DNA of 64,000 bases from Anthopleura xanthogrammica. Lineage: Eukaryota; Cnidaria; Anthozoa; Actiniaria; Actiniidae. This document shows positions 19,001 to 39,714 of this stretch, piece after piece. The stretch is taken from contig OZ025210.1 in assembly GCA_964019055.1 (NCBI GenBank), forward strand, positions 3,539,047 to 3,603,046. The letters run 5' to 3'. The notes under the pieces were generated by a model. The model had not been told where the DNA came from and did no database searches. It saw only the letters and a list, made by a program, of their open reading frames with translations. How positions within the stretch are numbered: the stretch's first letter is position 1; each line of letters starts with the position of its first letter. Both the position numbers and the translations under genes were made by a program.

Positions 19001-22000
19001 CATAGGAAAACAAAAGAAAGCAACTTATGTGTTATGGCATGACGTACCTCGTGCGTGCTGTAAGTCAGTACTATATGTTTCCCACTCATACAAAAACCGC
19101 TCTAAATGTATAGTACACTGTTCGTCAGTTTCGCGTCCTCAGTTTCTAGAACGAACTTGGTTCTTGCAAAGAAGGTGCCGACGAGGGCTCTAACTATATA
19201 TGTCAGTTGAACGCGGCCACAGGGGCCATGGAATTTGCTTTTATGGAGCTACTGCAGACTGTTAATCACATCTCACTTTTCCTCATTATTTCTCTCTTTC
19301 ATTCTTCCTTTTATTTCTCTTTTATTTTTGTGTTTATGATTTAATGTTGACTTTATTTAATGAGATATTATCTTAGTCTCCTACGCAGCCGTGACAACAT
19401 TAATAGTGCCTGCGTATGAGACTAATATTAACTGTAAGTTATTTATATTATTGATGAAATATTTAGTGTTCCTATACATTATCTTTTCTCGTCATTCATC
19501 TTTCCTCTTTTCGACTTTCCACGTGAAACATCCACTCTTTAAAAGCGCACGGATGCGCATGCGTGAGAACACGAACACCGCAGGCGCCGGCGCCGCGTCC
19601 ATTTAAAAATGTCGTTACCTTAACATAAAATTTATTTTCGTCACGTTCCTTTAGCACAGCTTCGAACTCCATCTCGACCTCCTGGCGGTTACGACGAGAT
19701 AATAAATGAAAAAATTCAAGAAAACTAAAATCACCAACCGAGAAAGGAAAACCTTAAGAAACGATGAAAGAAACGTATTTGTGCTTTATCTGTGAAACCG
19801 AGAAGTACTAAGGCGAGTAACAGGAAAAATGCGCAAAAATTTTCGTTGTTCCGTTGTGTCTCCGAAATTGTTCCGAAAACGACCGAGTTTATTTTCGAGC
19901 GCAATAGCTTATCCTGCGCCTCAGTACTTCAAGGACCTACTCAAAGTGCGTAAGTTTTAATTGAGTTGAGTTACAACTGTGTTCAAATGAAAATTTAAGA
20001 AACAGAAGACATTTAACTTGTGCGTGAAAAACGGTGCCAGGAATGCCAGTGAAAAACAACAATTATAGTGAACGAGACTTAAAATTGCTGTAATTTTTAT
20101 GACAAAAACTAAAAAAGTATAATTTAGTGCAAGGATATTATGTGCTAGGCTTGTGGTGCTGAATACACGAACGAAGTGTTAACATGTAAATACAAATAAG
20201 TGGAATGTGTTTGTACGTGCGACGTCAGAGCCGACATGTTGGAGGAATTATCGTTGGGTATATTTGTCATATAATCCAACATGATGACATGCAGTGTCTA
20301 GTGTAATTTCGTTCTCTTCGTTGACAACAAGAAACACATTTTATGGCATCATGTCATTGGACAAATTAAGCAAAGACAAGATGTTCTCAAGTGACGGGGC
20401 AAACAAGTTTCTTTTTTTATGCGTGCACTGTCATCTTCAAGGCTAACGTTCTCATAGGATGTCATTCGAAGCTTTTCCATCCAATCCCGACTGGTGAGAA
20501 TGTCAACATTGAAGGAGACGTGCTTACATAAAAAAGAATGTCTTGGCCCATCATCTTGAAGCCATGTATCTTTGCTATAGTAACAATATTCAATTCTTAT
20601 TGTGATGGTGTATTTACCTTCTTGGTATCGTTTCTTCCTTCAAATTCATAGTGTAAGTTCTCCACAGTATTTCTAAGATGCTCGTTCTCATCTTGGGCCA
20701 TAGTTAACTCACGTGCCAGTTTCTTAAAACGATAATAAATGGATAATATAAAATAACATTAGTGACAGAATTGTCAGCAACCACAACAGCAACAGCAGTA
20801 GAAACAGCATCAAACAACTGATTGTGAGAAAAATTAACCGACTACTTTAAGGTGACAAAACCAACAAGAACGAAATGAGAATCTAAAGTTTAAGAGAGGG
20901 AGACAAAATTTCCCATCCCTCCCCCTCCTTAGGCCCACCGCATAGGACCACTGTAAGAAACATGTGCACCATCTGTGCATTACTTATGATAATATACCTC
21001 ATAGTTGTCATTCAGTTTTTGGTGGTCCTCAACAAGTTGTGCTTTAGCTTCATCTACATCTCCTGATGTAAGGTGTAATGCCAATGTTCCTTCCATTCTC
21101 TTCAGTCGAGACTGCAGCTCATCTTTTTCAGCAATCAGAATTTCAAGCTCCTTTTCTATTTCCTATTCCATAAGAAATGATAAAGGTAAACAAACGTAAC
21201 CCATAATTCTCTATCACTGTTACAAAACATCAGTAGTAGCAATAACATGGCAAAACTTGGAGATAAATTAACTGACAGAGTCACAGACCATGGCTTCATA
21301 CTCCTAATGCAGCTCAATTTGGAGGACAAAGCAATAAAATTCTACTCTCATCAGAATTGAAAGTCATTGCAAGAGGTTTATATGATACACAGAAAAAAAA
21401 TGTCTTGTACAAACTTCAATATTACACGTTGGACAATGAACTTTACCTGACTGACTACTTTTCCTTCAGGTTTGTCAGTTTGGCATTCTTTTTCTGACTT
21501 CTTTGACTGAACAGCCTTAGCTTCCACTTCTGCTACTATTTTTGCTATCTCTGCTTTAAGTTCCTTAGTAAATTTGAAAACACAAAAATGTCAAGCTTTG
21601 TATAATTGCTTGGAGAAGAACACTACATTGTAAATACACTGGTGCCAGAGATTTTCTCTCAAACAAACCCTTCAGTGTATCCCGCTCTCCTTGGTCACAA
21701 ACTCCAAACTGACACCAGGGTTTACCATACAATGAACTTTCTTAAATTGGAGCAGTTTTCATACGAGTGAGAAGTACTGAGTTACAGCATATACATGGTA
21801 TGACATGCTGTAACACTGAAATGGCTTTGATTATCTTCCAGTAATTTATCTAATCAAAACATTTAGTGTGGCTATGGTAAAATATGTATAGCCACAGTAC
21901 AGCTACAAATGTTTTGGATCATTCCCCTCTAATAGAATGGGACCTGGGGTTTGAGTCCTGCCAGGCTCAGTGTCGTATGTGGGTAGAGTTGTTTGTTGGT

Positions 22001-25000
22001 TCTCTCCTTTGTTTCATGAGTTTTTTCTTTTGGTTCTCTGGTTTTCCTCCCTCTGCAAAAATCAACTTCTAAATTCCAATTGGAATTACAGTGGCCAAAT
22101 AGCTACTCTGTAGAGGAGCCACCGCTAAATCCCATTTATTTATTCATTTAAATGGGTGTATTTTTCCCCCTACCTTGTTTTGGTGATCATGGATTTTGAT
22201 TTGTTTCTTAGCTATCTTCAAGGCTTCAGTCAAATCACTATGTTCTTGGGTTGTCTTTGTGAGTGTTTCTTGTAGTTTCTATTCACATTTGACAACAAAT
22301 AATATACCGATATTAAGTATCCTCTCCAGGGTCATTGCAGGATGTACTGAACATGCTTCAATCTCTCCAAGAAAGATATAGTGTATAACTAACTATTATG
22401 TTTGTATATTGGAATTATGAAATACCTGGTTTTGTTGTCTAAGGTCTGCTAAAGTTTTCTCGGCAGGAGTACGTCTCTTTTCCTTTATTTTCTTTAGTTC
22501 GGTTTTTATTGTTTCATTCTTGCTTTGCAGATCCTGTGTATACATGTAGATGCATTTTATGTAAGCCAAAAAATATTTCTCATTCGTTCATTCATTTCTT
22601 CATTACATATAAAGGATTACGATACTAGGACTTACATCACACTTTTGCTGTAGCTGTGTTTTCTCTTTCTCATTTTTCTCAATACTTGACTGACTTTGTT
22701 CTCTCTGCACCTGTAATTGCTAATAATTTAAATATTCTCATTAATTCACACTCTCAATATAATTTCCAGGAAAGTTAAAAAATTTTATTGATTATACCTG
22801 TATTTTTATCAGCAGCATTTTATTGTCTTTCTGCAGTTGTTCCATTGATTTATCTCCTTCAGCTGTTTGTCTTTCCAGTGCAGTTTTGTACTCCTATAAA
22901 ATAATAAGATAAATATAATATAAATTAGATATTATGCCAAAATTAAGTTTATTAATGAAGATAAATATTTATAGGTATCTGTAAGGGTGTGTTCCAGGGT
23001 TTCTGGAATTCCCTGTTCAAGTTACAAATTTTGCGAATGTGGTCTATCTGATCACAAATTTGCACATGAAAACTCTTGTTTGCAACTCATTTTAGAGAGG
23101 ATGGAGCACATGCAAAATGGCTAGAGGGAATGTGCAATTCATTATATACTTTTTTATCATCATAACCTAATCTTGATGATCAATAAACTAGTAAAATTGA
23201 GGACAAACCTTTGCTTGCTGTGATGTTTTCTGGAACTTTTCATTAAGTGTTTTAAAATTTGACTTGAGATTGTTTCTCTCTGAACTTAGTCTGTTAATTT
23301 CAGTTTCAAGTTCCTAAACAAAAATTATAATAATATTGTATTAATGCCACATATGCCATTGTTGCAGTGATCAATTTTTACAAAGTCTTACTTTGACAAC
23401 ATTCTCATGCTCTTCTTCCAACTGTGCACACTTTGTCTTCAATTCATCATTCTTTTGAAGCATCTTCTTACCAAGTTCAGCAGCCATTTGTAGCTCATCA
23501 TTTTTTCTCAAAATCTAGAAACAGAAATTCATAAATTTATGTAAATATTTTACAAATGTCTTTGTCTTTTTTTATTTTGCCAATACTGACCTCATCCTTC
23601 TTTTCAAACTCTGCATGTATTCCTCTTTCCAACCATGACGACTCTTCTTTTTTTAATCTTCTTACTTCTTCTTTTTCTTCTTCAAGTTTTGCACTTAATC
23701 CTATAATTCAAATTCAAATTCATGTTAATTGAGATGCACCATGCCCCCCACATTTTTAGCCAAAAATGTATACCTTGACATTGTGTTCTTGTTTGTTTCA
23801 GCAAAATCATTTGTTTCTTCACAAACTTGATGAGTTCATCTTTAGGTAGGCTGTCAAGCTTAAATACAACATATATAACCCCATATTAGCTTTTAAAGTT
23901 AAATATATGTACATGTTCTTTAACATTCCCTCGATACTCCTAAGATGCTTTTATACATGACAATTTCTCATGTAATTTGTCTTACGAAAATAATTGTTGC
24001 CTGTCTGCACTAGAATTTGTGTGTATGACATGCCATGGCTTGCAAAAAAAAATATTTTCCATTTTTTTCTTCCAAGAAAGTAGAACTACCTTTTCTGCAA
24101 CCTGCAACAATTTTCTACACAAGACAATTTGCAAAGGAATTTCCAATGTATCATACAAGCTGCGAACAATTACTTTTCCTGAGACAATTATATGAGAAAT
24201 CATAGTATGTGACAGTGCCGATAATTTACATCTTTTTCATTCATTCTTTTCTTTCCTCCTTTATATTTACCTTTCCTGGAGTTTTTGCTGGGGAAGATTT
24301 AGCTTCTGGAGCACTACTTCCTTCTTCTAAAGCAGCGTTGTCAAAACCATTATTCTCCATGTCTGGGCTTAGATTTTTCTTTAAACAAATAGACACATAC
24401 CTCTGTTACATTATGATCACTATCAAGATTGTCTATTTATCGTTTTTTACTAATCTTATGAGTACCATTAAGTATTATTAATTATCATTGGGCTGAGCAC
24501 TAGACAAGGAAGTCCATAAATTCATTACTTATAAATTTTAATTTGTATTTGAAAACCAAAATTGTGCAACGAATAATGGTCACTTTTAATTGAAGTGAGT
24601 GGTAAAGAGCTCAACAGGAATCACAAGATAAAGTAGTCAATAAATCATTGATATGATACGTTTGACAAACACAATAGCAGATGCTTTAATGGTTCCTTCT
24701 CATTAACCCTAGAACTTTTAATATATATAATTATAAATAAAAACTTCACAAGAGGAAGTACTCAATATAAATAAGCCTGTTTAACAAATTTAATCAATAT
24801 TTTTGGTCAATAAGTCAGAAAAATATAATCAAAACAATATCTGGTTCTTTGAGGTGACAAAATTTTGTCAAAGGATTCGATAAGCTTACAGCGCTGAGAT
24901 ATTCCAGATATTTTGCAATCAAAAGGTTATCTCTGATTTCTAGCAAGACACCTAGATATAAAAAACTCTCATATGATCACACACTTCATTTAAAACGTTA

Positions 25001-25091
25001 TAAACTTCCACAATGATTAATTAAGGGTTTGGAATTTTAATACGATGATACAAATATCTTCGAGCTATCAGGTACTTACAATGGATGCCAT
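2184..25091 (-). CDS. GCC2: GRIP and coiled-coil domain golgin, GCC2/GCC185 ortholog (whole gene, about 40-45 exons)
   Basis: This is a trans-Golgi network tethering golgin: a long coiled coil anchored by a C-terminal GRIP domain that in vertebrates binds Arl-type GTPases, with Rab sites along the rod. The protein starts MASIKNLSPDMENNGFDNAA and continues into LDSLPKDELIKFVKKQM, the conserved GCC2 N-terminus (human: LDTLPKEDLIKFAKKQM). Further matches in order include KQVAIRAKKEM (10.0 kb), IAEYERTLESL (8.2 kb), EFESYK + VHSVLKQQK (7.2/6.5 kb), EQLKIKVQEM (6.35 kb) and the GRIP exons. Exons are mostly 70-150 bases with GT-AG junctions, apart from one 1.8-kb exon. Summed coding sequence is roughly 2,000 codons; I did not join every exon. 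Start and stop are both supported. I see no frameshift, so it should be functional. Introns carry many repeats. Confidence 0.93.
2460..2531. repeat. Inverted repeat of GCCGCCAT(T/C)TTGGTTGA
   Basis: Seventeen-base arms at 2460-2476 and 2515-2531 are inverted copies with one mismatch. Each arm contains CCGCCAT(T/C)TTGG, close to the YY1 recognition core (CGCCATNTT). It lies in the last GCC2 intron. It may be the core of a small foldback element or a real cis-element; the sequence alone cannot decide. Confidence 0.4.
5135..5413. repeat. Tandem duplication of about 79 bp within a foldback element
   Basis: The motif AATACAGTAAAG(C/T)GACTCTC begins at 5135, 5212 and 5293 (periods 77 and 81). Copies two and three are nearly identical over the whole unit, and the first copy is more diverged. 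The right edge (GGAAGCCATTAAAGTGCG, about 5388-5405) is an imperfect inverted copy of the left edge. This suggests a foldback element that later duplicated internally. It lies in a GCC2 intron. Confidence 0.65.
6165..6340. repeat. CTC/CAT trinucleotide microsatellite cluster
   Basis: (CTC)n at about 6211-6243 is flanked by CAT/ATC-rich runs. It is in a GCC2 intron. The open frames across it are repeat translations, not genes. Confidence 0.85.
6660..7055. mobile_element. Retroposon tail-like segment with ATT microsatellites
   Basis: GTAAAGCGCATTGAGACATT followed by GAAATGCGCTATATAAGAAC and then (ATT)n looks like the 3' end seen in many animal SINEs and L2/CR1-type LINEs, where a stem-like tail precedes a short tandem repeat. 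It is followed at 6835-6961 by a sequence duplicated at 59162-59288 and a second (ATT)n run at about 6969-7013. The retroposon class is an inference from the tail shape. Confidence 0.5.
6835..6961 (+). repeat. Dispersed 127-bp repeat, copy 1 (copy 2 at 59162-59288)
   Basis: The block from ACATATTTTATAATTTTTTG through GATCCTTTAATATCGCTCG to GAAATAAAGTTATTA is repeated about 52 kb away in the same orientation. I can see only one substitution (AACATTATAATT versus AATATTATAATT). Both copies run into an ATT-type microsatellite, as expected for the 3' end of a retroposon. Confidence 0.85.
7960..8045. repeat. CTC/CAT microsatellite
   Basis: (CTC)n followed by CAT-rich runs in a GCC2 intron. Adjacent GCC2 exons are intact. 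Confidence 0.85.
8704..8850. repeat. Imperfect tandem duplication, about 75 bp, two copies
   Basis: TAGGGTGTGCCTCATGG recurs at about 8709 and 8783. Each copy is followed by (A/T)TATGGGTCCA and by A-rich sequence with CAGTCAAAT or AAGTCAAAT. It is intronic within GCC2. Confidence 0.6.
10014..11846 (-). CDS. GCC2: GCC2 giant coiled-coil exon (611 codons)
   Basis: A single exon of 1,833 bases, phase 0 at both ends (acceptor GATAG|GAATTT, donor CAACAA|GTAAGCC), encodes an unbroken Glu/Lys/Leu/Gln heptad coiled coil. It begins EFSQLKEKCDSLNTSF and ends KQVAIRAKKEMENIKQQ; the latter matches the GCC2 segment KLVAVKAKKEL. All other exons of this gene are 3 to 20 times shorter. The exon has internal repeats such as LQEKE(E)E and LE(N/D)K(E/D)(N/T)E, consistent with growth by internal duplication. 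Confidence 0.93.
12000..12262. repeat. Degenerate minisatellite, three units of about 95 bp
   Basis: Each unit carries (T)AA(C/A)(G/A)AGTTTG followed by a GGTATACAC or AGTATATACCCCCT block, a C-rich run ending CCCAATC or CCATC, then TTTGTGT(T/C)GGAC or its degenerate form. Units start near 12005, 12105 and 12196. Intronic in GCC2. Confidence 0.6.
12468..12605. mobile_element. pogo/mariner-like hairpin remnant
   Basis: AAACCTCTGTAATACGAACAC at about 12470 pairs as an inverted repeat with GTGTCCGTATAAGAAAGGTTT at about 12516-12536. A second GTGTCCGTTTTAGGTAGGTC and terminal AAGAGGTTT follow up to about 12598. The layout matches the elements at 570 and 30180. Confidence 0.45.
12621..12777. mobile_element. 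Foldback MITE with arms of about 70 bp
   Basis: The left arm (ATAGACCTTTTCTGAATTCC...GTTTGAACTTGATAT) and right arm (complement of ATCAAGTCCAACCTTGACTT...GAATTTGGAAAAGGTAT) are imperfect inverted copies over about 70 bases around a short centre. A related copy lies at 53355-53490. No coding capacity. It sits in a GCC2 intron. Confidence 0.75.
16053..16106. promoter_or_regulatory. Inverted pair of E2F-like sites
   Basis: GGCGGGAAAA at 16053-16062 and TTTTTCCCGCCAAAA at 16092-16106 face each other around a CpG-rich 30-base core. TTTCCCGCC(AAAA) is the textbook E2F site. The pair is in a GCC2 intron, so a regulatory role is unproven; it may be only a small hairpin. Confidence 0.3.
18180..18330. 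mobile_element. CpG-containing repeat related to the 39.86-kb element
   Basis: ACTTGTCGCGCAACATTG, TTGCAAGTTGCA and GTTGCTCGTATT occur in the same order and spacing as at 39875-40040. The GTGGGTTAAG motif on the left has a complement (CTTAACCCGTG) on the right of the 39.86-kb copy. It is a diverged member of the same foldback family, in a GCC2 intron. Confidence 0.55.
21884..22145 (+). mobile_element. SINE-like retroposon fragment
   Basis: GACCTGGGGTTTGAGTCCTG resembles a diverged pol III B box (GGTTCGANTCC). It is followed by a segment GGTTTTCCTCCCTCTGC at 22032 that recurs on the opposite strand near 61527-61547. A tRNA-derived SINE is a reasonable guess; no A box or poly-A tail was confirmed. 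Confidence 0.35.
23590..25091 (-). CDS. GCC2: GCC2 N-terminal exons
   Basis: The start ATG is at 25091-25089 in a 12-base coding exon, MASI, with donor ATT|GTAAGT. The next exon (ending near 24379) begins K-N-L-S-P-D and includes a Ser/Ala-rich stretch up to TPGK. The following exon (about 23776-23858) gives LDSLPKDELIKFVKKQM and ILLKQTRTQCQ, and then GLSAKLEEEKEEVRRLKKEE starts the coiled coil. The LDSLPKDELIKF block is the most conserved N-terminal signature of GCC2, which fixes both the family and the 5' end of the gene. Confidence 0.9.
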
Positions 25092-25492
25092 TTCTTCAAT
25101 CCTTTCTCAAGGGACTAACTCTTGATAAATTTTCTTCATTCACATCTACATCTTTAAATCCTCCTTCTATTTAGAGGCAGTATTGTAATCGTTTTGTTAA
25201 AATAATCGTCTATTATATGAGTGTATTTATTTATTGCAGACGGAAAATGAATCGATCAGAAATGTTTTGTTGTGTCAGCGGTATCTTGATGACGTGTTAA
25301 AGTTTTAAAGCCTCGAGGTCAAGAGAACGAGCAGTCCTGGGATTATTTGAAGTCAAAGTTCGTCACTGAAGTAAGCTGAGCTTGAAGTTTTCTCGTTTTC
25401 TTTTTATTTCTTATATTGAATTTTTATTATTAACAGATTTTCTTTGTCAAATAGTTTGATATTTGTTTGAACTTTGAATATATGCCAGCTAT

Positions 25493-25612
25493 AGACCCCT
25501 TGCACATGATGTCAAAGCAGCTCAATTTGGAGGAGAAAACAAAATAATTTCAAAACCTATTGTTTTGTTCTCCAAATTGAGCTGTATTCTGACGTGCTGC
25601 AAGGGGCCTACC
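25493..25612. mobile_element. Small foldback element, about 120 bp
   Basis: TAGACCCCTTGCAC...CAGCTCAATTTGGAGGAGAA is mirrored by the complement of TCTCCAAATTGAGCTGTATT...TGCAAGGGGCCTA. A partial relative (AGCTCAATTTGGAGGACAAA) lies at 21312. Confidence 0.7.
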
Positions 25613-26346
25613 TTCTTAGAGATGTGACATGCAAAGTAATTTTAGGAACAGAGGTCTACCCCTTTCACTGAATCCCTACCAGAACTCTACCAGGGGGTCA
25701 AAAAAATGAAAAATATTAGCTCCATAAGTGATAACAGGATACATAATGAATCCCCCCCCCATTTCTATGAAAGTAAGGTTACCCTGGTTCTTGGGACAAG
25801 TAATTTGTTTTCTTTCCAAGTAGAGTCCCAAAACAATTCTTTATTTTCATCAGCGTTTAAACTTCATTGCAGCTACATTGGGGGTATTTAACAGAAGACT
25901 TCTCATAAGCTTCCATTTTTTACTAGTATACCATCAACATGGCCACCAAGGTTTTGTGTTTGACTTTCTTGGGAATGCTTTCAAATCAATAGAGTTAGCC
26001 TAGACTCTGCAATGATTAGGGTACAATCCTATCTTCATGTGGACTAGGCCTTAGTTGTTTGTGCACAACCCTGCAGTAATGTTTCTTACATTTCTTCCAT
26101 AGTTACCTGACTTTTTTGGAGAACAGCTCAAACATCATAACAATCAGTGCAAGAATCTTATCAAAAACTATTGTCTTTATTCAAGGTAACATAAAATAAC
26201 ACATTTAGTTCCACTAAATTCCATTAAATACTATCTACATTTCACAAGAATAGGTTAAAATATTTCAAGTGGAATCAACTTATGCACAATATGGGACTTA
26301 CAAGTACAACAGAATACACAGCTCTATCTGAGAAGGCAAACATGGT

Positions 26347-26432
26347 GTATTCTGGTCAACTTGGGTACAAAAATCTTTGGTTTGTCATGTCTTATAAGGT
26401 TTTGCTTGTACCCAAGCTAGACCAGAATGTAC
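26347..26432. repeat. Hairpin-forming inverted repeat, 86 bp
   Basis: ATTCTGGTCAACTTGGGTAC is matched by the complement of GTACCCAAGCTAGACCAGAAT. The arms are about 22 bases with a loop of about 40. Confidence 0.65.
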
Positions 26433-27321
26433 ATAGTACCCTATATATTTGTGGTTTCTGATTGGTCAAGAGAGGGATCGACTGAATAATGTGAAAATTA
26501 ATTGTCCTACTTTAAGGAAACTACATATTGTATTACAATATCATATGTTGAAATTTGTAGTATATGAGCTAAATGGCTTTTTTTGTCATTTGCAACATTT
26601 TTTACCAGTATGAATAATATACGTATAATGCTAAATAACTAGTATCCCACATACCATTTTTAACATAATGAAATAGTACTTATGTCTTATGAAAATAACC
26701 TTCAAAATCTACATACTATCACGTTGTCATGACAACAAAGTGTGTTTGTGACACTTTAAAAACATTCTCCCTGCTTTCCTTTTAATCTCTGCTAAGTAAT
26801 GAATGGTAATTGATTTTTAATGAGACCAAAAGGAATATGAGAAAGAAGGAAAGAAAATAACTTAAATAATTGTGAGATGCTTACCTAATGTAATGCAATT
26901 AAGCCAGTAGCGTTACGTGTGTACTTGTTAAAAATCTAAAAAGCACTTTCTACCAGTATGTTGTTTTATAAAAGATAAATGTAACCACCATGTAGTAAGC
27001 TATGATTTCATGAGGAAAGGTATGTCATCGGGACTCAACTTTTTTATGTTTATTTTTCTTATCTATTTCAAATATTTGATTAAAATGAATTAATAGATTC
27101 TGAAAGACAAACCTTTTAGCTTGACTCATGTCAGCCAATAAACTAGATAGAGTAGAATTAATATGAACGAGAAAGGACATGATGCCTTTATCATATTTCG
27201 GCAGCCTATTGATTGGTTGTTGAACTACAAGTTCCCATTCATGCAAAGCTGCTCTAACTGTTGACTGTCCTATTTTAATACTTCTAATATTTTAAAACTA
27301 CACTGGTGATGGATATCAGTT

Positions 27322-28872
27322 TCACAAGTATGTTAGGATAAACACAACTTTCTCGTCTGCGCTCATTGATGTCACATGAATGGGTTCCGCGTGAGCTGTA
27401 TCACCAGTAGCACTGAACCCAATGTAACGTGATCTGTCCAGGAGAGACTGGAATGTCATATTCATTCCACTACCTTCGACCAGCTCAGTATGCATGTTGA
27501 ATACGTATGGCTTTTCACCTTCAATCTTTTTAGAGATGTTCACCTCCTGGTAAAGAAAAAAAATTGGAATTTTGAGAGAGAATCACGAATCACGAATCAC
27601 GAATCAAAGATTATACGATTTGTCTCTTTAAACAAAACATTTGCCGTTTCAGAAAACAAATAAGAAAAAAAACCAAGGCCAGACAGAAAACTTTTAAGGG
27701 TAAAAACTGAACTAACGTAGCGTCATCACTGCATGAATATACCTCAACACGGGCGTGTTCAAGGGCCGTGTACCCTCCATTGAACTTACTTACCTCCAAA
27801 TAAATGGATTCATGATCAAAAGCAACGCAAAGTCCAGACTGTTTGTGCTGTATCACTACTGGGGTCCCTGTGTCGTCGGACATCGACCAGTATTTATGGA
27901 TTTGGAATCTGGCACTTTCCTCTACGCAAACAAAGAAATGAAAATATAATAGTTAAAGTGGGCAGACAACTGCATGGTTACCGAGTTTCTTCTCTGTCAA
28001 CCTCTTCTTCGAGAGAGGAATCTGGGAGAATTCTATATTTTACAAAACTTGAAAATTTTTGAATATTTAAAATAACGCTTGTCGAGATTTGATTGGTCGT
28101 TGGGGATCAACAAGGAAATTAACCGTAAAACTCGATTAAGCTCCCCCCCCCCTGATTAAGCGCAGCATAGGAGATCACAAATATTAAGCTACAGACACAC
28201 GGCACAACAATGCGTGCAACGTTGCAGGCAATCGATGTTGCGAGCCATGTAACACGACGCAATTTGTTGCATGCACTGTTGCTGAAGTAAGAAACCATTC
28301 AATTTAGCAGCATTTGATTGCCTGCAATATTGCGCGCAATGTTGCACCGTGTGTCTGCGCATTTAAAGAGCGCCGCCACCGAAACACTAAAACTTTAAAG
28401 AGCGCCGCGGCGCCCATTCGACTAAATACGGTACTCAAACATGATGGGTGGGCCTGAGGAACCTACAACCACTCTGGTGAGAGGTAGTGCTTTAGCAGCG
28501 CACACTACAAGAACATCACACTTATCTGCTAAGGTCTCACTTCATCCTCAGCCGAATCACAACTCCCTCGTTTCGTTTTCTCTACAATTTCAGTGCACGG
28601 AACATTACAACATAGGCTCAGTCCAACCTTGCCAATCAACGTTGAATGAAATACTGCAGTAAAATTGGTAAACCACTAACCTTCAGTAGCTGAAAGATGG
28701 TACTTCAAGGCAAGTCTTCTATCATCTCTGACCACCCATGGAGTATCAAAACTTGCAAACTGAAGGTCTACGACTTCTACATGATCTTGATGAAAAAACG
28801 TTGCGTAATCGCTTAGACTCCAGCTAGATCCAATTTCAACTTGGATGATTTCAAGTTCATTTTCCGTTTGGC
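27322..28872 (-). CDS. Exons encoding the IL-1-like beta-trefoil domain
   Basis: There are three exons: 28681-28872 (phase 2 in, phase 1 out), 27794-27921 and 27322-27546 (stop TGA). The first starts GQTENELEIIQVEIG and reaches SFDTPWVVRDDRRLALKY. The second is ESARFQIHKYW...SIYLE and the third EVNISKKIEGEKPYVF...KVVFILTYL. The length after Asp288 (138 residues) is close to mature IL-1 and IL-18 (about 150). Alternating short beta-strand patterns and aligned landmarks support a trefoil. An Asp-Thr junction (FD|TP) sits where IL-1beta is cut by caspase-1, which is noted as inference only. Confidence 0.62.
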
Positions 28873-30483
28873 CTGGAGAGAAAATTCAATCATTACAGTA
28901 CGAATATATTTAAGTTCAACATGACTTTCATTTGGCTCGGAGATAAACCAAATGTTTTACGGTTTACTCCAGGACGTTTTGATTTGAGAGTGACTAGATG
29001 GCTTCCTGTGTATAGAATACCAATTAATTTATATTTTTTTTCCTAACTTGTCTTGTTTGAAAGTCTAAAGGAGTGCATGGATAACCACACAATCTGCTCC
29101 TTGGATTTGCGTAGTGCATATTACTGGTGAATGACCAGATTTCAACCATGAAAGGGCTACCTATAAACATGCGTTTTTGGATGACTCGCAACTTCTCGCT
29201 TTTTGATTGGTTAATTGCTTAAAGCGGAAGCCATTTGAGTTGAGCTAGATTCTTGAATCAGATACCCACAAATTACCCTGGATTCCAGAGGCTGTCTCGC
29301 ACGCTCTTTGGCGCGTGCGTTCGCCTACAGAGCGAAAGGACCTCAGGCACCGAGGGTACCCGCAACTCTTCATGAGCATAGAATGATTAACTGGAAATAC
29401 GAGTTATTCGATCTGTTTTCAATTATTTTCATTCTACCTACCTCCGATTCGTCTTGCATTGCTAATAACCATTTTAATGAGCTCTGTTCCTCCTGTTTGA
29501 TGATTTCTTTTCTTTCGAAGAATTTCCTAGAAATCAATGAAAGCCAAAAGTTTATAAATTGCGGACAGAACCCCTACAGACGGATGGACAGATGGATGGA
29601 CAGACAGATGGAGGGATAAATGTTTGGATTGGTGGTTGGATGGTTGAAAGAATGGAAGGCGAAATGAAAGTACGCCGAGTTTTACTTACCATCTCCAACT
29701 GATCACTGTTTTCATAAACAAAGGCTTCTTTCAATTCTTGGCCTTTGAAGCATCTTTTGCCATTGATTTTAGAAACCATGTCTCCTTCTCTATGAATTGA
29801 AACCACTTTTATTAACATTTTGAGCCAACGACAGACCAACGATGAGAATATAATTGTCTAGGATAGAATAGGATAGGGCAGGGCAGGGCAGGGCAGGATA
29901 CGATAGGATACAAATAGAATTCGATAGGATAGGGATGGGATAAGATAAGATAGGATAAAGTAAGACTAAAACACGTATCGATCCTCCCTCGGTCCCCTAC
30001 GCTGGTTAGAGTAGTATATTACACGTTGTGCAACTTTCAGAGGTAACCGCTGCTTTCCATTGCGGTATTATCCAATCAAAAGCAATGGTAGTTAAATTTG
30101 CCCGGCGCTTTTGCTCCGGAAACCAAAAGGGAGGCATGCTCTGGGAACGAGAATGAGTGAAATGTGAATGCGGACTGCAGTAAAACCTCTCATTTTAAGC
30201 GGCCAGCCTCAGGGAATTGTCAAGTGGCTGCTTAATAGAGGTTGGCGCTTAAAGGATGCACACTACATTTGTTTACCTGATGCCAAAACCGTGCGCAAAT
30301 GAACCCAACTTGACTTCCATGACAGATATCATGGACGTAATCTCCTCCTTTTGGACTCCGTCCACCTCATCTCCATCACAGTCTTTTGTCTTTAAGACAA
30401 GTTTCATCCCCATCTCATGTACTTTACCATCTGTTTTTATCTTAATTTCAGTTTCTATCTTAACATATGGCTTCGAGGATGAG

Positions 30484-30522
<39 letters not shown>

Positions 30523-33500
30523 CGTGAGATGTTTGGTGTAGATTCAACGCTTTTACATTCTGTGATGATAATCTTGGGCTGGTTTCGTTTGAGGCTATTT
30601 TCTGCGACCTCCTGTGAACAACACCAGCGAGACTAAGGTTAGTAGTTGATTAGGTTTTGTTTGATTGGGAATTACACAAAAACGTTCCTTTTAAATGGCT
30701 TTCGAGTCCAAACATTGTGTTTGCTTGGTGTGCTTTTTCTTGCAATTTGATTGAAAGCCATTGTAGTCTAGCGTGTTTGAGTGTTTGTTGCAACGCTTAA
30801 ACACTGGCACAATGGGAGAGAAAAAGCTACCGCAGAAGTAGGTTTATTCATTCACGCTTAAGAAAATTTACTTGCAGAACATTTGAAGTGAAATAGGGAG
30901 TTTCTTAGACTATGCGCGCACTCCATACCAGAAGTGCGCACACCAAATATTTCAGTGTAACGCATCTTATCTGTTATGCACCGAATTGCCGCGCAAATGT
31001 CCTTGCCCCAGTTTCCTATAAAATATTTAGTAGGAGGCGGTGGTCGGTTAGATTTTAAATGAATGGACTTTAAAGCACTGCGAACCAAAATCACGTGATT
31101 TAGGTCACATGTTTCAAGTCACGTGATCGATGTCTAAAACGCAGAAATGACGTCATAGTCTGCCATGCTGTGGTCAAGAAGCTTTAAAAAATTGACAGAA
31201 AAGTCGTTATTAATTACGATATGTCTGAGCAACCTTTTAACCCTTTGAATGTTTTTATTCATTCTCGAACCTTACATGATAAAAGCTTTCTTTCATTCCG
31301 AAGCCACATTCAGACGTTCTCAATAAAGTCGCTTAATTATTTCATCAAATAGGACTCAAATCTGTGCAGTGATAGACACGACGAGTCAAAAAGTACGTGG
31401 ATAAGACTGCATGTGTATGACAGGTGTTTCAGCCGAGCTGAGTTAGAAAACGCGCTCATTTCAGACTCAAATATAAGCAGAGCTGAAGTATACTGAGTAC
31501 TGATGATATCAGAGGGTTTTAGTAAGGTTTTACCGCATTATCAGATCGTATGATATTGCGCACTTCTATAAAAACACATGAAACTCGAAATACCTTTACA
31601 AATATATCGTAAACTATGTTCGATATTTTTGTTCTAAGCAGTGGTTTGCGCTGTTGCTCTCAGTGATACATGATAATCATATTTTAATTGGTTTGTTTCA
31701 ACTTATTTAGCTAAGTTAAGACTGATAAATCACTCTTATAACTATCAAGAAAATGTCAAGCAAATATACTAAAACTAAGATCTCTCACCCTTCGGCGACT
31801 GGCCGACTGAAATCAGTGGTAGAAAATGCTATATTCGTTTGATAAAAGCGATTTTACAGTGCAGATAATATCAACAAATCCAGATCATATCAAGAGAGAA
31901 CACAGGAAGCTTTTAGATGTTTAGAATGTTTACTCTTTTGGTAAATAATGTACCTCCCTTGTCGCACGCTCTACAACTGAATACAAGCTCAATATTAATC
32001 ATATTTTTATAGAATAACTGTTCCAGACTTTTATGACCTTATGGAACCTGAGATGCATACATATTTTCGTTCTTTCCTGGCGCGACCAACTAAAGATGAA
32101 ATTAGGATAGTAGCGCGTCTGGATTTAAGTTACCAATGAACCAAGAAAGAATCTGTGTTACGTTCTGTTATATAATCCTTGGAAGATCAGTAGAGACAGC
32201 TCTTATCGAGTTTTGAAGCTCATACCAAAATTTCAACAAAACTTTCTTTCTTCCTCGTAACAAAATCGCACCATCCAACCTCTAAGACGCTCGCGGAATG
32301 TTCTGGATGGATTACTGTATAATATATTCTCTTACTAACGTAATGGATTACTGACCATTCGAGGATTTAGGGATCTTCCCTTGTAGTTGACTTTCTTAAA
32401 CTTGCCCCTGCCTGGTTACATCAAATATCATGGCAATATTCAGGAGTAAGATTATCTAGTAATGTTTCATAATACATTTGTTTCAAATACACACGAAGGA
32501 CGCATCGAAACTTATCCGTGTCCACCGTGGGGGAGGGGATAAGACGACGTTTGTCAGTCATTTTCAGTTCAAACTGGAATTTCCCCCGCTTATTCTCATG
32601 ATGCATGGGAACCAAAATCATATCCTTGTAATAAATATTTAAAAAATTATATCAATTTATAAGTTTGGGGAAAATTGCGCAATGAACTTCAGGAAATAAA
32701 TGCTTTGATTTCCAACACAATCAATATACAAATTTTGATCTTTTTTTAAAAAAAAATTTTTCATTCAATAAAATTAAACCGAGAACATTAATTGGATTCA
32801 ATCTTCAGAATTTACTTTTTCTATTAAATAATAGTTTTTTTAATCACTTTGGGGCAATAAAAGACGGACAACTTTCCGGCAGTTCAGGACAGAGAATATA
32901 AAATATAGGTAGGATTTTCTGCAAGCCTAGTTGTGTTCCAAAAACATGAGGTATCAATTCAGAAACTGAAATGAAATAACATGTGTGAAAAGTAAAACGA
33001 ATTTTAAATTTTGATTTTAAGTTGTTGACAGCGAATTCAAAACCGCCAGGGAGACACAGTCGCGCAGCTGTTTTTGATTCGTTCAGATTACAGAATCCTG
33101 TACGTGATAAAACTACGCTACTCAGAGCAACAGCTACTCCTGAAGTGATTACATGTTATCTTGAGATTTTAGTAAACACGTTTTAAAACTATATAATAAA
33201 CGTATCAAAAATGAGCCCTGACAAAAACTGCCCAAAATGGACAAAAAATAAATAATTAATTTTTTTTAAAAGATGTTAAAATCTTCAGTATTTCATAGAT
33301 TATCGAATCCGGCCTTAGTACACAAAAAATAAATAAATAATTATAACAATAATAATGATGATGATGATATCAACAACAACTGCACAATAATATTATAATT
33401 TATAAGGATAATAATGATACAAATAATAACAATAATAATAATATTAACAATAATGAAAATATATAAGTAAAACGTTTTTAACATTTTCGTGTCACCTATA

Positions 33501-35532
33501 GAATAACAATAAAGATAAATCTATTTTTGCTTTTTCATCCAGAAGCTGCCTTTCCCTCTCTCTCTCTGCTCTCTTCCTTGATAATCTTTATTAACGTAAT
33601 CTTTACATTCAGGGCTTCCTTACATGGCACGCCGTTTTTGTTAATAAAGTCCGTCCCACTAAAAAGCGGTGCGGAAACTACTCGATAATTTGCCATTAGC
33701 TTCCTTTTTTCGTTTTAATACGTATCGATCCTCTCTTTTTCTCTCTTCCTTTTAACCTTTTTTTAAATTCAAACGTCAGTCATTGGTTCAGCGCATCTCT
33801 TCCGGTTGGGAAGCGGAACTCGGAATTTAAACTTACGTTGACGCATTAATGGAAGCCAAAAATAGAGAATTTGCGGAATGAAATGTCTTTACGACTTCCT
33901 ATAACTATAAAGGAAATTGAAAATCAGTTGTTACAGTCACGTTTTAACCACTTTTCCTTTCGACTTGCCAAACACTGAGAATTGCAGGACTAAGAAATAA
34001 TTATACCTGAAACGAAGTTTATCAAAAAAGTTCATTGAATCATTTATAAGAAAACGGCTTTTGATAAGTTGAATTTTTAATCTTAGTTTTTGGATACGAA
34101 TTAAATTCCTCGAATATGATTACGCAAGCTGGCTTTCTTTTGGTCATGCGATGCTCAAAAATTGCCTCTGAAAACGAATTTTTCTAGTGAGTTGATCAAC
34201 CAGGCGTCATGCTACGAGTCAGAGTAATATTTTTAGAAAATAAGACTTATCAAGTCTTATCAAAAAACTGATTGGAAAAAAGATCGTACAAATGGTAAAT
34301 GGGGATGATAAATTACGCCTCGTTAAATAGATGTCCCACCCTGCCTTTCCGAAAACTTAAAAAAAAAATTTTTTTCTATATATTTATTTACTACTGAATT
34401 CAATATTTCAAAAATACTAGTACTTTCTTGCTGGTACCAGATGGTGCTGTTCAAAATGTTTGTCTTCAGAATTATCGTGATAGTTTTTTTTTTATGAAGG
34501 AGCATTGTTTCATCAAAAAGAGAGCAAAAAATAACATATCAAGCAATCTGGGCTAGTGTTTTGATAAACGATGAATTTTCGATAGAAAACTGCGAAGGAA
34601 AAACGGCCTCAACCAATCGACAACAGCGCCTGCAGATATAATAAAACTGATATCATATTACCACGTACAGAGAAACTCTACTTGCTCTTATTATCGAGGA
34701 AATTAATTCAAACCTGACCTGATGAGGTTTCTTATTATTTTTTTCCCAGTCGTAACGCATCACAACGCCAAATGTATTTTTTCTACAGATGAGGTCTCAG
34801 TTAATGGTTCTTAATGCATTTGAGACTGAAGGATTTGACGAGGAAAAAAGCATTATTAATATGCTTCCGGACCACTCGTAAACATTTCTTTTGAAACTTA
34901 AGCGCAACCTCTGGTCAAATGGTCATCAATTTTTGCAATTCGTTTCGGCTTTTGACCAACGTACTCAAAAAATTTGGCTTTTAAAAAAATTCTTGCCGAG
35001 TATGCACTGTTGCTTGTCTCCCAGTGTTGATGGAATTAACGCAGGGGATTTTGACCTTTTGACAAAGCCGATCTCAAGCCGAGTTTCTTTTTCATAATGT
35101 TGGTTTTCATGTGTCTCGTATATAATACATACTGCTGGAAATGTATTGCTCTTATAGACAAAACCACAGATAAGAAAGATAGCGCGAGTTTCATTGAAGC
35201 AAAAGCGAATATCACCACCTATCACCGCAATGGTATTTTGAAATTGCGGTCTCGAAGCTTCTTGAATATATATAATATATTTAAAAAAAAAATGAAAATG
35301 GTGATGTTTTAGAATACAGCGCAGTTTATAACTACATTAACTATGGCTTAGTTGGAGGATTGTCATGCCTGAAAACAATGACAATATAAGCATATCATTG
35401 AAGCATGTAGGAAGGGATTATTCCCTTGACCATACTCACCTCTCGAACTGCCGTCCCTCCGAAGCACGGCCATTTCTGAAAAAGTCTGCATACTTTGGAC
35501 GACATAGTTGCACGATGTGCCATTAATCAGAA
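27322..35532 (-). CDS. PDZ protein with a C-terminal interleukin-1-like beta-trefoil (8-exon model, about 426 aa)
   Basis: Exon model: 35440-35532 (ATG at 35523), 32493-32624 (donor uncertain), 30277-30611, 29690-29789, 29442-29526, 28681-28872, 27794-27921, 27322-27546. The last six join in consistent phase. Residues 104-114 are poly-Ser. Residues about 122-225 form a PDZ domain: carboxylate-loop-like MGMKL, then GFGIREGDMVSKINGK. Residues about 289-426 look like an IL-1-family fold: PVVIQHKQSGLCVAF, YLEEV, KPYVFN, then FQSLLDRSRYIGFSATG. The last matches the IL-1 signature (F-x-S, then Y-I-x-x-S) and lines up with FESAxxPNWYISTS of IL-1 and FESSSYEGYFLA of IL-18. There is no signal peptide, as in IL-1 precursors. 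A divergent FGF-type or other trefoil is the main alternative. Exon 2 is least certain. The gene is divergent from the TRAF gene. Confidence 0.72.
27580..27606. repeat. AATCACG heptamer tandem repeat
   Basis: About four copies of AATCACG occur in the intron before the last exon of the IL-1-like gene. Confidence 0.8.
28192..28357. mobile_element. CpG-rich foldback MITE (CAGACACACGG family)
   Basis: CAGACACACGGCACAACAAT...GCAACGTTGCAGGCAATC pairs with the complement of GATTGCCTGCAATATTGCGC...CACCGTGTGTCTG. The ends resemble the element at 40780-40971. It is in an intron of the IL-1-like gene. Confidence 0.75.
29276..29400. other. Short GC-richer intronic segment
   Basis: The stretch GCTGTCTCGCACGCTCTTTG with GCGCGTGCGTTCGCC is locally more GC- and CpG-rich than its surroundings. 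It has the look of an old repeat. No gene is seen. Confidence 0.3.
29578..29645. repeat. GGAT-rich microsatellite
   Basis: GATGGACAGATGGATGGACA-type imperfect (GGAT/GGAC)n repeat, in an intron of the IL-1-like gene. Confidence 0.75.
29690..30611 (-). CDS. Exons encoding the poly-Ser linker and PDZ domain
   Basis: Exon 30277-30611 begins EVAENSLKRNQPKIIITE, has an 11-Ser run encoded by (AGC)10-AGT, then KIETEIKIKTDGKVHEMGMK and MEVKLGSFAHGFGI. Exon 29690-29789 completes the codon AG|A and gives REGDMVSKINGKRCFKGQEL and KEAFVYENSDQLEM. The order (GxGI, GD-x(4)-INGK, helix, beta strand LEMEILRKK) is a canonical PDZ fold, which binds C-terminal peptides. Exon 29442-29526 (EILRKKRNHQTGGTELIKMV) closes it. 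Confidence 0.8.
29858..29965. repeat. GGATA / GGGCA pentanucleotide satellite
   Basis: (GGATA)n with a (GGGCA)4 core and TAAGATA variants. It lies in an intron of the IL-1-like gene. Confidence 0.85.
30179..30255. mobile_element. pogo/mariner-like terminal hairpin remnant
   Basis: CAGTAAAACCTCTCATTTTA followed by AGCGGCCA pairs with TGGCTGCTTAATAGAGGTT (inverted). Third member of the CAGT...CCTCT hairpin group in the window. Confidence 0.5.
31100..35430. other. Large AT-rich introns of the IL-1-like gene
   Basis: Apart from exon 32493-32624, no coding segment with convincing splice support is seen between 30.6 and 35.4 kb. There are AAT/GAT microsatellite runs at 33340-33470 and a CT-rich tract at 33555-33580. 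The ORF-sized stretches at 34.9-35.2 kb overlap on both strands and lack domain content. Confidence 0.55.
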
Positions 35533-35930
35533 CTGTAAAAAAGATTTTATTGAAGTTTTATAGTCAAATCCAATACGCCATGACTACGAGTAAGACAGCA
35601 TGCATTAAGCTTTGAGTCACATGTCGATTCTCGCACTTCTCTTCAACAGATGATCCAAATAACATGAAAATACGATAGTAATATCCAACTAAACACGGCT
35701 TTACAAGCATTTACCTTAACAAATGATATTCCTTGATATTTTAGTGAAGATCTCGGGATCTCGCAGTCCTTACAGTGATGAAAGCTTTATAAGATTCGTC
35801 TGTGTATCGCTACCAACTAGCAGTGCGTGTTGAAGTATGAGTGAATTGATTTACCGGCTGTACTGCGCACGATTTATCATCGATTGAGTCTTGTCAATTC
35901 CTTTTACGTCATGCGTTTTTCAACAAGGAA

Positions 35931-36397: not shown

Positions 36398-39300
36398 ATG
36401 ACTTTCGAACCTTCAAGCAATCGACCAATTTTTGTCAATCCTGTCGAGGAAAGATTAAAGTGTGTGGCTTGTAAAGATTTTCTTAAAGATCCGGTTCAAT
36501 CCTTGTGTGGACATAGGTAAGTGACTACATCATTTACTATAGATAGCAAGCAGTTATAAGATACACTGTACACCCTTCCTGGGTGCATAGTTTTACTAGT
36601 ACACGTCGTTAGAAACACGTCGACATCCTTGACTAAATCATTCGAGTATATTCTACGAAAAATATAGTTATCCTATTTCATAACACACACACAAATATGC
36701 CACAACCAGATGGGATTTTTGTCGATTGTTCGAGTCGATTATAAACTTACATGAGTTCAGCAGTATTCATTTTGTTGACGTAATATCGAGCCGGTTCTCA
36801 TTGTGTCATGCACGTTGTATACAATAAGTTCAGCGGCAGCAAAAAAACCTGCTCTTTTCAATACATACTATCCTGGTTTAAAACTTCAAAGACTGAGTAA
36901 TCGTCTCTAATTGCAAGGAAATACAATAAACATTGTTTCGGAAAAGATTGGCAAAAAGTCTTATGTATAATGATATATCGCCTGACCCATGAGGACTCTG
37001 ACGTAATCATTTCGGTTATTATTATGAAATTATGAAGCGTAAAATCGACAAAAACTCATGACGGATACCTTATTACGTGAAATTTTCGCGACACGTTAAT
37101 TTCGCGATTTTGGAGGTCGCATATTTCGCGATTTTGAGAAAAAATCATATTCTTCTCGCGAAAATTTCATGTAATAAGGTATTTCTTGGTTTAACGGTAC
37201 ATATATCAGTTGTGATCCTGTAATGCAGGCTAACTTGAATTAACATAAATCGTAATGTTTCCAGCTGGTGCCGGTTTGAATAAAGGCTCTGACGACCGTT
37301 TCTACGGTCTGGTGGCTTCTGACTCATGTAGCTATAATGTAGAAAAATGCATCAAAAATAAAAATTAGAAAAATTCAAGAAATGAGCCTTAAAAAGAGAG
37401 GTTTTATTCGCCAACAATCTTTTACCAATGTTTCACCTAACAGTTTAATAATAGTACTTCCCGAGTTTGTTTCTAGCCATATACTAACAGTCAGTCATGT
37501 GACCATTGATTCTAAGGTATTGCACAGAATGTGCAAATGCCATCCTGAAAAGTCCTGGGTCACGCTGCCCTGATGATGGACACGGATTGCAGTCTAATCA
37601 GCTTTTTAAAGATCGCTGTGCAGGTAAAGAAATCCTAGCCTTAGAGTGTTATTGCGGAAGGAAGAAAGATGGCTGCACATGGAAAGGCATGCTGGCTGAT
37701 CTACAGAAACACGCTTGTCCTTTTGAGAAGGTTTGTTTTAGAAAGTCTTTTATGGTTCATTTTTTCCATCTAAACAACTAGCCATCAACTAACTCTATCC
37801 GTCCATCCACTCATCCATCCGGCCATTCTGCATCACATCCATCCATCCATCCATCCATCCATCCATCCATCCATCCATCCATCCATCCATCCATCCATCC
37901 ATCCATCCATCCATCCATCCATCCATCCATCCATCCATCCATCCATCCATCCATCCATCCATCCATCCATCCATCCATCCATCCATCCATCCATCCATCC
38001 ATCCATCCATCCATCCATCCATCCATCCATCCATCCATCCATCCATCCATCCATCCATCCATCCATCCATCCATCCATCCATCCATCCATCCATCCATCC
38101 ATCCATCCATCCATCCATCCATCCATCCATCCATCCATCCATCCATCCATCCACCACCATATTCAGCAATCCATCCATCATCATATTTAGCATTACATTC
38201 AACTATCATTCTTTCTTTCCTTAGTTTTTTTCCTAGCTCCTCTTTTAATTTTACATCAACTCACTAGATCATCACTCACTCCTTACCTCCTACATCACAA
38301 CTGATTGTTACCACCACTTTTACAAAAGACCTCCCATAAACAAAAACATTTGATCGATATCGTTTAAATTTGGCCATTTTTTGTTATTATTATATATATC
38401 ATTAAGAAGTTATAAATTGTATTTCAGGTCGAATGTGTCCATAAATATAAAGGATGCGAGGCCATTGTACTCAGATGCCAACTACCATCACATATAGACA
38501 AGAAATGCTTATACAGAGAAGTGCAGTGTCAGTTTTGCCTTGGAGAAGTTCTTGAGATCAACATGGACAAACACCATGAAAAATGTTCAAAATTTTTAAT
38601 CGAATGCGAGAATAACTGCGGCGTCAATCGCTTGCCCAGGGAGCAGATGGAGGAACATATAAACCTGCACTGCCCTCTAAAAATCAGGTACTGCAGCTTC
38701 CATCATCTTGGCTGTGAATTCCAAGGCACAGAGGAGCAAATTAAAGAACACGTTGAAATTTTTTATACCAAGCACTTGGAGCTTTCCGGGCAATACGCTG
38801 AGAAAACAGAACACGAATTACAAACGCTCAAGCAAAAAATCGCTATCTTGGAAGAAAAAAATCGAGCGCAAAATGAAGTTCTTTCAAGTGTCCGAGAAAC
38901 TTTTTCGACACAACAAGTCAAACTAATGAAGGTCGAAGAATTTATTGTCAAGCAAAACAAGACTGTGGAAGAGTTGATGAAGAAGAGCGGGAAAAGTACA
39001 GATGAGCCAGAACTACCTTCAGTACTCAAGATGGTTGATGACTTAAGAGAGCAATTAGAAGGCCATTCGAAGAAAATGAAAACCTTGGAAAACGAGGTGG
39101 CCGCGAAAGCTTATACTTTAGAAGAAACAAAAGATTTTAGTTTAGGAAGTGGATCAAGTGTTCCTGCGAGCTTACAACAGCGAATTGGCGCGGGAGAAAG
39201 CTCGGTTGCTTGGCACGATGTTCGTCTTGCAGAACACGACCTTCGGCTTTCCATTCTCGACAAATGTACCTACGATGGCACTTTTGTGTGGAAAATCGAA

Positions 39301-39714
39301 AATTACAGTCAAAGGTTTCAAGAATCCCTAATCAACAAAACTCCATCTTTATACAGCCCACCTTTCTATACATCTCGTTTTGGATACAAAATGTGCGCAA
39401 GGGTTTACTTGAACGGCGATGGTTCTGGTAAAGGAACCCATGTATCGCTTTTTATTTCAGTCATGAGAGGTGAATACGACGCCATATTACCTTGGCCATT
39501 TTCTAAGAAGATTACTCTTAAGTTATTGGACCAAAACAAGTTGGAAGACATCACAGAGACTTTCAGACCAGATCCTAATAGCAGCAGTTTTATGCAGCCA
39601 AGAGTAGATATGAATATTGCATCGGGATGTCCGAAATTTTGTACCCATTTGCGCCTGCAAACAAATGGCTATGTTAAGGAGAATACAATGTTTGTCAAAG
39701 TTATAGTAAACTGA
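36398..39714 (+). CDS. TNF receptor-associated factor (TRAF), complete, 539 aa
   Basis: Exons 36398-36516, 37517-37730 and 38428-39714 join in frame. TRAFs are cytoplasmic adaptors and RING E3 ligases that carry signals from TNF-receptor, TIR/IL-1-receptor and CD40-type receptors to NF-kappaB and JNK. The RING finger is at residues 22-60 (C22, C25, C37, H39, C42, C45, C57, D60: CVACKDFL...CGHRYCTEC...CPDD). TRAF-type zinc fingers occupy about residues 85-200, including [21 protein letters not shown] coiled coil follows to about 330, and then a TRAF-C/MATH domain at about 389-537 ([33 protein letters not shown]). The MATH domain is closest in feel to TRAF2/3/5. Start: the ATG at 36398 gives a short leader before the RING; an in-frame ATG at 36308 is possible. 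It looks functional. Confidence 0.95.
37065..37182. mobile_element. Foldback MITE in TRAF intron 1
   Basis: ATACCTTATTACGTGAAATT plus TTCGCGA at the left is matched by the complement of TCGCGAAAATTTCATGTAAT plus AAGGTAT at the right. The arms are about 28 bases with one or two mismatches. The interior has further TTTCGCGATTTTG repeats. Confidence 0.75.
37836..38152. repeat. (CATC)n tetranucleotide microsatellite, about 79 units
   Basis: Approximately 317 bases of uninterrupted ATCC/CATC repeat in TRAF intron 2. Open frames over it (repeating WMDG on the minus strand) are artefacts of the repeat. An array this long and this pure is expected to be length-variable. Confidence 0.97.

Follow-up and report, generated by a model that had tools for sequence, protein, structure and literature searches.

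A sea anemone gene that probably encodes a PDZ-bearing homologue of the interleukin-1 ligands

The gene, its neighbours and its host

The minus strand of the window, by which is meant the whole 64-kb stretch of DNA analysed here, carries between positions 35505 and 27322 a gene of seven exons that have GT/AG borders and join into a single open frame of 376 residues followed by a stop codon (Table 1). The predicted protein opens with a serine-rich stretch, continues with a PDZ domain and ends in a 181-residue C-terminal domain (residues 196-376), the product of the last three exons. An earlier note had read these three exons as the coding region of an interleukin-1 (IL-1)-like beta-trefoil. All three exons are present, flanked by GT/AG and open in a single frame up to and including the stop codon, and the peptides that it had picked out (PVVIQHKQSGL, YLEEV, which spans an exon border, KPYVFN, RYIGFS and VVFIL) are all found in the translation. 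Its statement that the last three exons code for one domain likewise stands; the size it gave, about 138 residues, falls rather short of the 181 that these exons encode. Inspection by eye finds no obvious signal peptide or hydrophobic leader at the predicted N-terminus, which is encoded by the tentative first exon.

Table 1. Exons of the PDZ-IL-1-like gene, listed 5' to 3' (positions are those of the window)
Exon	Position	Strand	Content	Phase of intron after	Matches and relatives
1 (tentative)	35440..35505	-	ATG start, 22 residues; open frame to GT donor; weakest exon	0	
2	30277..30611	-	serine-rich stretch and first half of PDZ	II	Pfam PDZ
3	29690..29789	-	PDZ (REGDMVSKINGKRC...)	0	Pfam and PDB-chain PDZ matches
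4	29442..29526	-	end of PDZ and linker	I	
5	28681..28872	-	linker and start of IL-1-like domain (residues 196-259)	I	relative P0002
6	27794..27921	-	middle of IL-1-like domain (ESARFQIHKYWSM...IYLE)	0	Pfam IL1 match starts here
7	27322..27546	-	C-terminal part of IL-1-like domain (EVNISKK...VVFILTYL) and stop codon		relative P0001

Two of the exons have recognisable relatives. That of exon 7 (P0001; 72 aa, 12 contigs) is 79% identical to it, and that of exon 5 (P0002; 52 aa), aligned along 80% of the query, is 92% identical; both may be paralogues rather than orthologues. A search for tandem paralogues in the 20 kb on each side recovered the exons of the gene itself and just three further matches, at E 4.9-6.3. 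When viral and prokaryotic contigs were scanned with the C-terminal domain, 5 and 60 stretches, respectively, fitted a pattern and none was confirmed. Neither Rfam nor a tRNA scan gave a match in the window.

Elsewhere in the window, the minus strand carries a long coiled-coil gene at about 10000-25100. Its coiled-coil matches in Pfam, at 10002-11846, are weak and below threshold; we take it to resemble GCC2. Two long open frames of 434 and 866 aa lie on the minus strand at 42248-46178 and have no Pfam match at E <= 0.01. A short palindromic, MITE-like repeat (CAGCTCAATTTGGAG...) occurs at 21310-21332 and 25518-25584. It has three matches in the window and none in shuffled sequence. A repeat motif of the window, when used to scan other contigs, had no match in the viral ones and one in the prokaryotic ones, this being in a bacterial MAG.

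The host lineage can be read from the composition of the window and from the mitochondrial genome of the same assembly. Over the whole window the observed/expected ratio of CpG is 0.84; it falls to 0.355 at 20000-27300 and reaches 0.94 at 27300-35600. The value for the window agrees with an invertebrate, and the depletion at 20000-27300 beside CpG-rich neighbours has the appearance of mosaic gene-body methylation. In the mitochondrial genome (contig 125; 20,039 bases, genetic code 4), an intron with a homing-endonuclease-like frame interrupts cox1, and nad5 is likewise in two pieces, which enclose nad1 and nad3 (gene names assigned by eye from the translations); ARAGORN and Rfam find two tRNAs. 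An open frame of 646 residues between cox2 and nad4 is without assignment. These features together are those of Hexacorallia, and the genes follow the order known from Metridium and other sea anemones. The cnidarian source that the earlier note had suggested is thus borne out by a mitochondrial contig of hexacoral type, and the assembly is that of a hexacoral, most likely a sea anemone. A vertebrate origin of the window was considered and rejected on the CpG ratios and the hexacoral mitochondrion.

Profile evidence for the two domains

The PDZ domain is recognised by Pfam at 22.8 bits, slightly under the cut-off of 23.2, and three further PDZ models also match. Single-sequence searches of PDB chains place it closest to the PDZ domain of a site-2 protease homologue (E 1.5e-7), followed by that of HTRA3 (E 2e-4), and syntenin-1 appears as a weak match (E 0.017).

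For the C-terminal domain, the best family among the 24,736 Pfam models searched is IL1 (PF00340), at E 3e-4 and 20.9 bits. Exons 6 and 7 alone match it at E 2.4e-4 and 21.2 bits. Neither score reaches the curated cut-off of 25 bits, which is a detection threshold rather than a biological feature. The match weakens to E 0.024 when exon 7 is exchanged for its relative P0001, and exon 7, P0001 or P0002 each submitted alone yields no IL1 match in Pfam. The domain has one other listed family, SH3_6, whose match (E 0.016) covers its final 21 residues, and none of the other trefoil families is listed at a max_evalue of 10, with filters that remove most matches above about 0.1. Specifically, in the comparison of IL1 with FGF (PF00167) that had been suggested to decide between the two trefoils, IL1 is found and FGF is not. 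A profile made from FGF1 and FGF2 gives the domain -1.6 bits, a score equalled by 2146 of 5000 shuffles. FGF or another trefoil family as the better match was accordingly ruled out. Of two human proteins run as controls in the Pfam scan, IL-18 matches PF00340 at 2.4e-35 and IL-33 gives no match to it.

When nine human members of the IL-1 family are combined in a profile, the anemone domain scores 21.3 bits against it, a value reached by none of 5000 shuffles (best shuffle 11.0; 4034 of the shuffles appeared in the output at all). The same approach was applied to human members left out one at a time, each with 2000 shuffles and scored against the remaining eight sequences. The values were 99.1 bits for IL-1Ra, 91.9 for IL-1 beta, 88.9 for IL-37, 41.6 for IL-1 alpha, 20.8 for IL-18 and 7.6 for IL-33, the last being equalled by 4 shuffles. 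The anemone domain is therefore about as distant from the family as is human IL-18 (21.3 bits against nine sequences, 20.8 against eight). Identity between the domain and the nine human proteins amounts to 16-24% over aligned columns. Hydrophobic residues occupy 24 of 27 core columns, which 1 of 200 shuffles equals. The columns conserved among the human members lend no support to homology, with identity at 9 of 25 and 35 of 200 shuffles doing as well.

Several further searches came back empty. Single-sequence phmmer against PDB chains found no match for the domain at E <= 10, and human IL-18, run by the same method, likewise missed the other IL-1 members. A protein search seeded from residues 180-376 produced 178 candidates, none at E <= 10. 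Scanning the whole genome (289.8 Mb, 125 contigs) exon by exon with PF00340 gave no match. This last result is uninformative, because the control also matched in 0 of 14 genomes.

The stretch FQSLLDRSRYIGFS... had been put forward as lying close to the IL-1 family signature, a claim that fails: it agrees with the PROSITE pattern at 5 of 9 fixed positions, a level of agreement also present in 10070 of 20000 shuffled versions of the domain. The same count gives 9 of 9 for IL-1 beta, 6 of 9 for IL-18 and 5 of 9 for IL-33. These counts hold for the form of the pattern assumed here. As the signature separates the domain no better than chance, it was dropped as evidence of homology.

Exon-intron anatomy and the vertebrate IL-1 genes

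The coding introns of the anemone gene have, from 5' to 3', the phases 0, II, 0, I, I, 0. A published account of IL-1 beta genes describes the arrangement II, 0, I, I, 0 as typical, showing it for turtle, gives the last three intron phases as (1,1,0) and assigns the twelve-stranded part of the protein to the last three exons (PMC4880838). The last five phases of the anemone gene are identical to those published for IL-1 beta (PMC4880838). The anemone exon model and its phases had been fixed before this comparison was made.

The positions of the introns could be compared by means of assumed human IL-1 beta exon sizes, which reproduce the published phases. On these sizes the two genes have their last intron in a common alignment column and in one phase (after LQLE in IL-1 beta and IYLE in the anemone), and the penultimate intron lies at most 3 columns from that of IL-1 beta, in identical phase. 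Simulation puts the chance of the two coincidences at 1.0e-4 to 7.5e-4 under assumed phase frequencies, and the chance of the three upstream phases, taken as a product of assumed phase frequencies, is 0.033. Gene anatomy is the strongest evidence for kinship with IL-1. The intron phases and the PDZ/IL-1 layout add support that is independent of residue similarity. Together with PF00340 as the sole trefoil family listed, they uphold the IL-1-like reading of the domain from which the analysis set out.

A protein that combines a PDZ domain with an IL-1 domain has been described in fish. Lumpfish nIL-1F is a protein of 352 aa with this combination, encoded by seven coding exons separated by six introns, and the clade to which it belongs is said to take in cartilaginous and lobe-finned fish (PMC7144542), unlike an older review, which describes nIL-1Fm as teleost-specific (PMC4929537). 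The anemone protein, at 376 aa, has the same two domains, according to its profile matches, and the same count of coding exons and introns if the tentative exon 1 is accepted, a likeness in described domain and exon layout. The fish protein is also described as lacking a signal peptide (PMC4929537), and none is evident by eye at the tentative N-terminus of the anemone protein. The two differ in that the fish gene has a vertebrate host and a reported IL-1 signature (PMC7144542), which is absent from the anemone gene. Exon count alone cannot single out nIL-1F as the counterpart, since seven exons and six introns are also reported for the type I IL-1 beta genes that jawed vertebrates possess (PMC4929537).

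The remaining members of the family share different features with the anemone gene. IL-1 beta shares the five phases and the position of the last intron and is 21% identical within the domain; it differs in having a propeptide in place of the PDZ domain and in its complete PROSITE signature. IL-1Ra is 19% identical to the anemone domain. IL-18 and IL-33 are similarly remote from the family by profile score, and their signatures are incomplete too. To our knowledge, IL-18 and IL-33 have no PDZ domain, unlike the anemone protein. FGF would share the trefoil with the anemone domain if the fold of the latter is confirmed, and is set apart by the profile comparisons given above.

Homology, rival explanations and possible function

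Collectively, these results indicate, with a probability that we put at roughly 0.86, that the gene is a sea anemone homologue of the IL-1 ligand family and belongs to its PDZ-IL-1 (nIL-1F-like) type. Judged from its sequence, the C-terminal domain probably folds as a beta-trefoil, and we infer that gene structure and domain architecture were inherited from an ancestor shared with the vertebrate IL-1 genes. A different history would have an independent trefoil, whether FGF-like, fascin-like, lectin-like or unclassified, converge on IL-1 and acquire its PDZ domain separately. Trefoils are reported from seemingly unrelated proteins and many sequences are thought able to form them (PMC5861070), and both the sub-threshold score against PF00340 and the incomplete PROSITE signature fit such an origin. 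However, Pfam, with most matches above about E 0.1 filtered away, lists no other trefoil family for the domain, and the FGF1/FGF2 profile performs no better on it than on many shuffles. Convergence also leaves unexplained that five phases match, that the last introns coincide and that nIL-1F has the same PDZ and seven-coding-exon layout. We regard convergence as improbable. Still more remote is the chance that there is no real gene here, the model being either a decayed pseudogene or a series of open exons joined by accident. The tentative first exon and the derivation of the model from genomic DNA leave some room for it. Against it, seven exons hold the frame with GT/AG borders, two of them have close relatives, and PDZ and IL1 profiles meet in one protein, as they do in fish nIL-1F.

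If the gene is indeed an IL-1 homologue, its most likely mode of action can be sketched. The precursor, presumably leaderless, would remain in the cytoplasm and be retained there through its PDZ domain, until cell damage or proteolysis of the linker sets the C-terminal domain free. Candidate cleavage sites can be picked out by eye at Asp217 (SLSD|Y) and Asp231 (VVD|L), both of which are kept in P0002. The freed domain would then bind an anthozoan Ig-TIR (IL-1R-like) receptor, as an agonist or an antagonist. Fish nIL-1F is reported to be an antagonist of IL-1 beta (PMC7144542; PMC4929537), which makes a role as antagonist or modulator as likely as one as agonist. Possible receptors are described from several anthozoans: three Ig-TIR proteins, called IL-1R-like, in Nematostella (PMC1896004), complete IL-1R-like genes in every actiniarian species of one survey (PMC5094078) and a high number of such genes in Porites lobata (PMC10236652). 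A view reported in that survey is that Ig-TIR proteins arose independently in cnidarians and vertebrates (PMC5094078), and a ligand-receptor axis of a single age is hard to reconcile with that view. Taken as a whole, the sequence from leaderless precursor through PDZ retention and release to Ig-TIR ligand seems to us about evenly balanced between right and wrong.

The main competitor of this mechanism, and of the mechanism only, accepts a true IL-1 homologue and makes it an intracellular PDZ adaptor, extracellular use as a cytokine having come later. The recognisable PDZ domain and the signal peptide that is not evident by eye are in keeping with an adaptor, as is the suggestion that the IL-1R-type receptors seen in Nematostella may at first have served ligands other than interleukins (PMC1896004). 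However, vertebrate IL-1 members are described as lacking signal peptides too (PMC4929537; PMC3511578), so that this point does not discriminate, and the presence of several Ig-TIR proteins in anthozoans (PMC1896004; PMC5094078; PMC10236652) weighs against a purely internal role. An adaptor seems to us a serious contender, with a smaller chance of being right than the release of a ligand.

The significance of the gene lies in its phylogenetic position. IL-1 ligands have been described as absent outside vertebrates or jawed vertebrates (PMC9020223; PMC9382457), and the receptors as older than the ligands (PMC9020223). Among the matches listed from the open-licence literature, none reports an IL-1 ligand gene in any cnidarian. 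With ligands placed only in vertebrates until now, a PDZ-IL-1 gene in an anemone, with the intron pattern of vertebrates, would make the family older than the divergence of cnidarians and bilaterians. We know of no ligand for the anthozoan Ig-TIR proteins; if the homology is true, these orphan receptors gain a candidate, and the origin of inflammatory cytokine signalling becomes testable in a tractable animal. The gene also bears on the question of whether IL-18, IL-33 and IL-1 beta have one ancestor, which has been doubted (PMC5861070). A bolder proposal, which we consider unlikely, is that the whole family descends from a PDZ-IL-1 protein that already served in the cnidarian-bilaterian ancestor as a damage-released ligand of Ig-TIR receptors, that nIL-1F keeps this form, and that IL-1 beta has in its propeptide (phases II, 0, I) the remnant of a decayed PDZ region. 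Were that so, ligand and receptor would be equally old, and the accepted order of receptors first and ligands in vertebrates only would be wrong.

A side observation concerns a neighbour of the gene. A TRAF gene lies on the plus strand at 36398-39711, with zf-TRAF and MATH domains in a long exon (Pfam) and a long (CATC)n array at 37840-38150 within an intron. It is arranged head to head with the IL-1-like gene, the two start codons being about 0.9 kb apart (that of the TRAF gene was placed by eye). Vertebrate TRAFs act downstream of IL-1 receptors, and for this reason a possible promoter shared by the two genes would merit attention.
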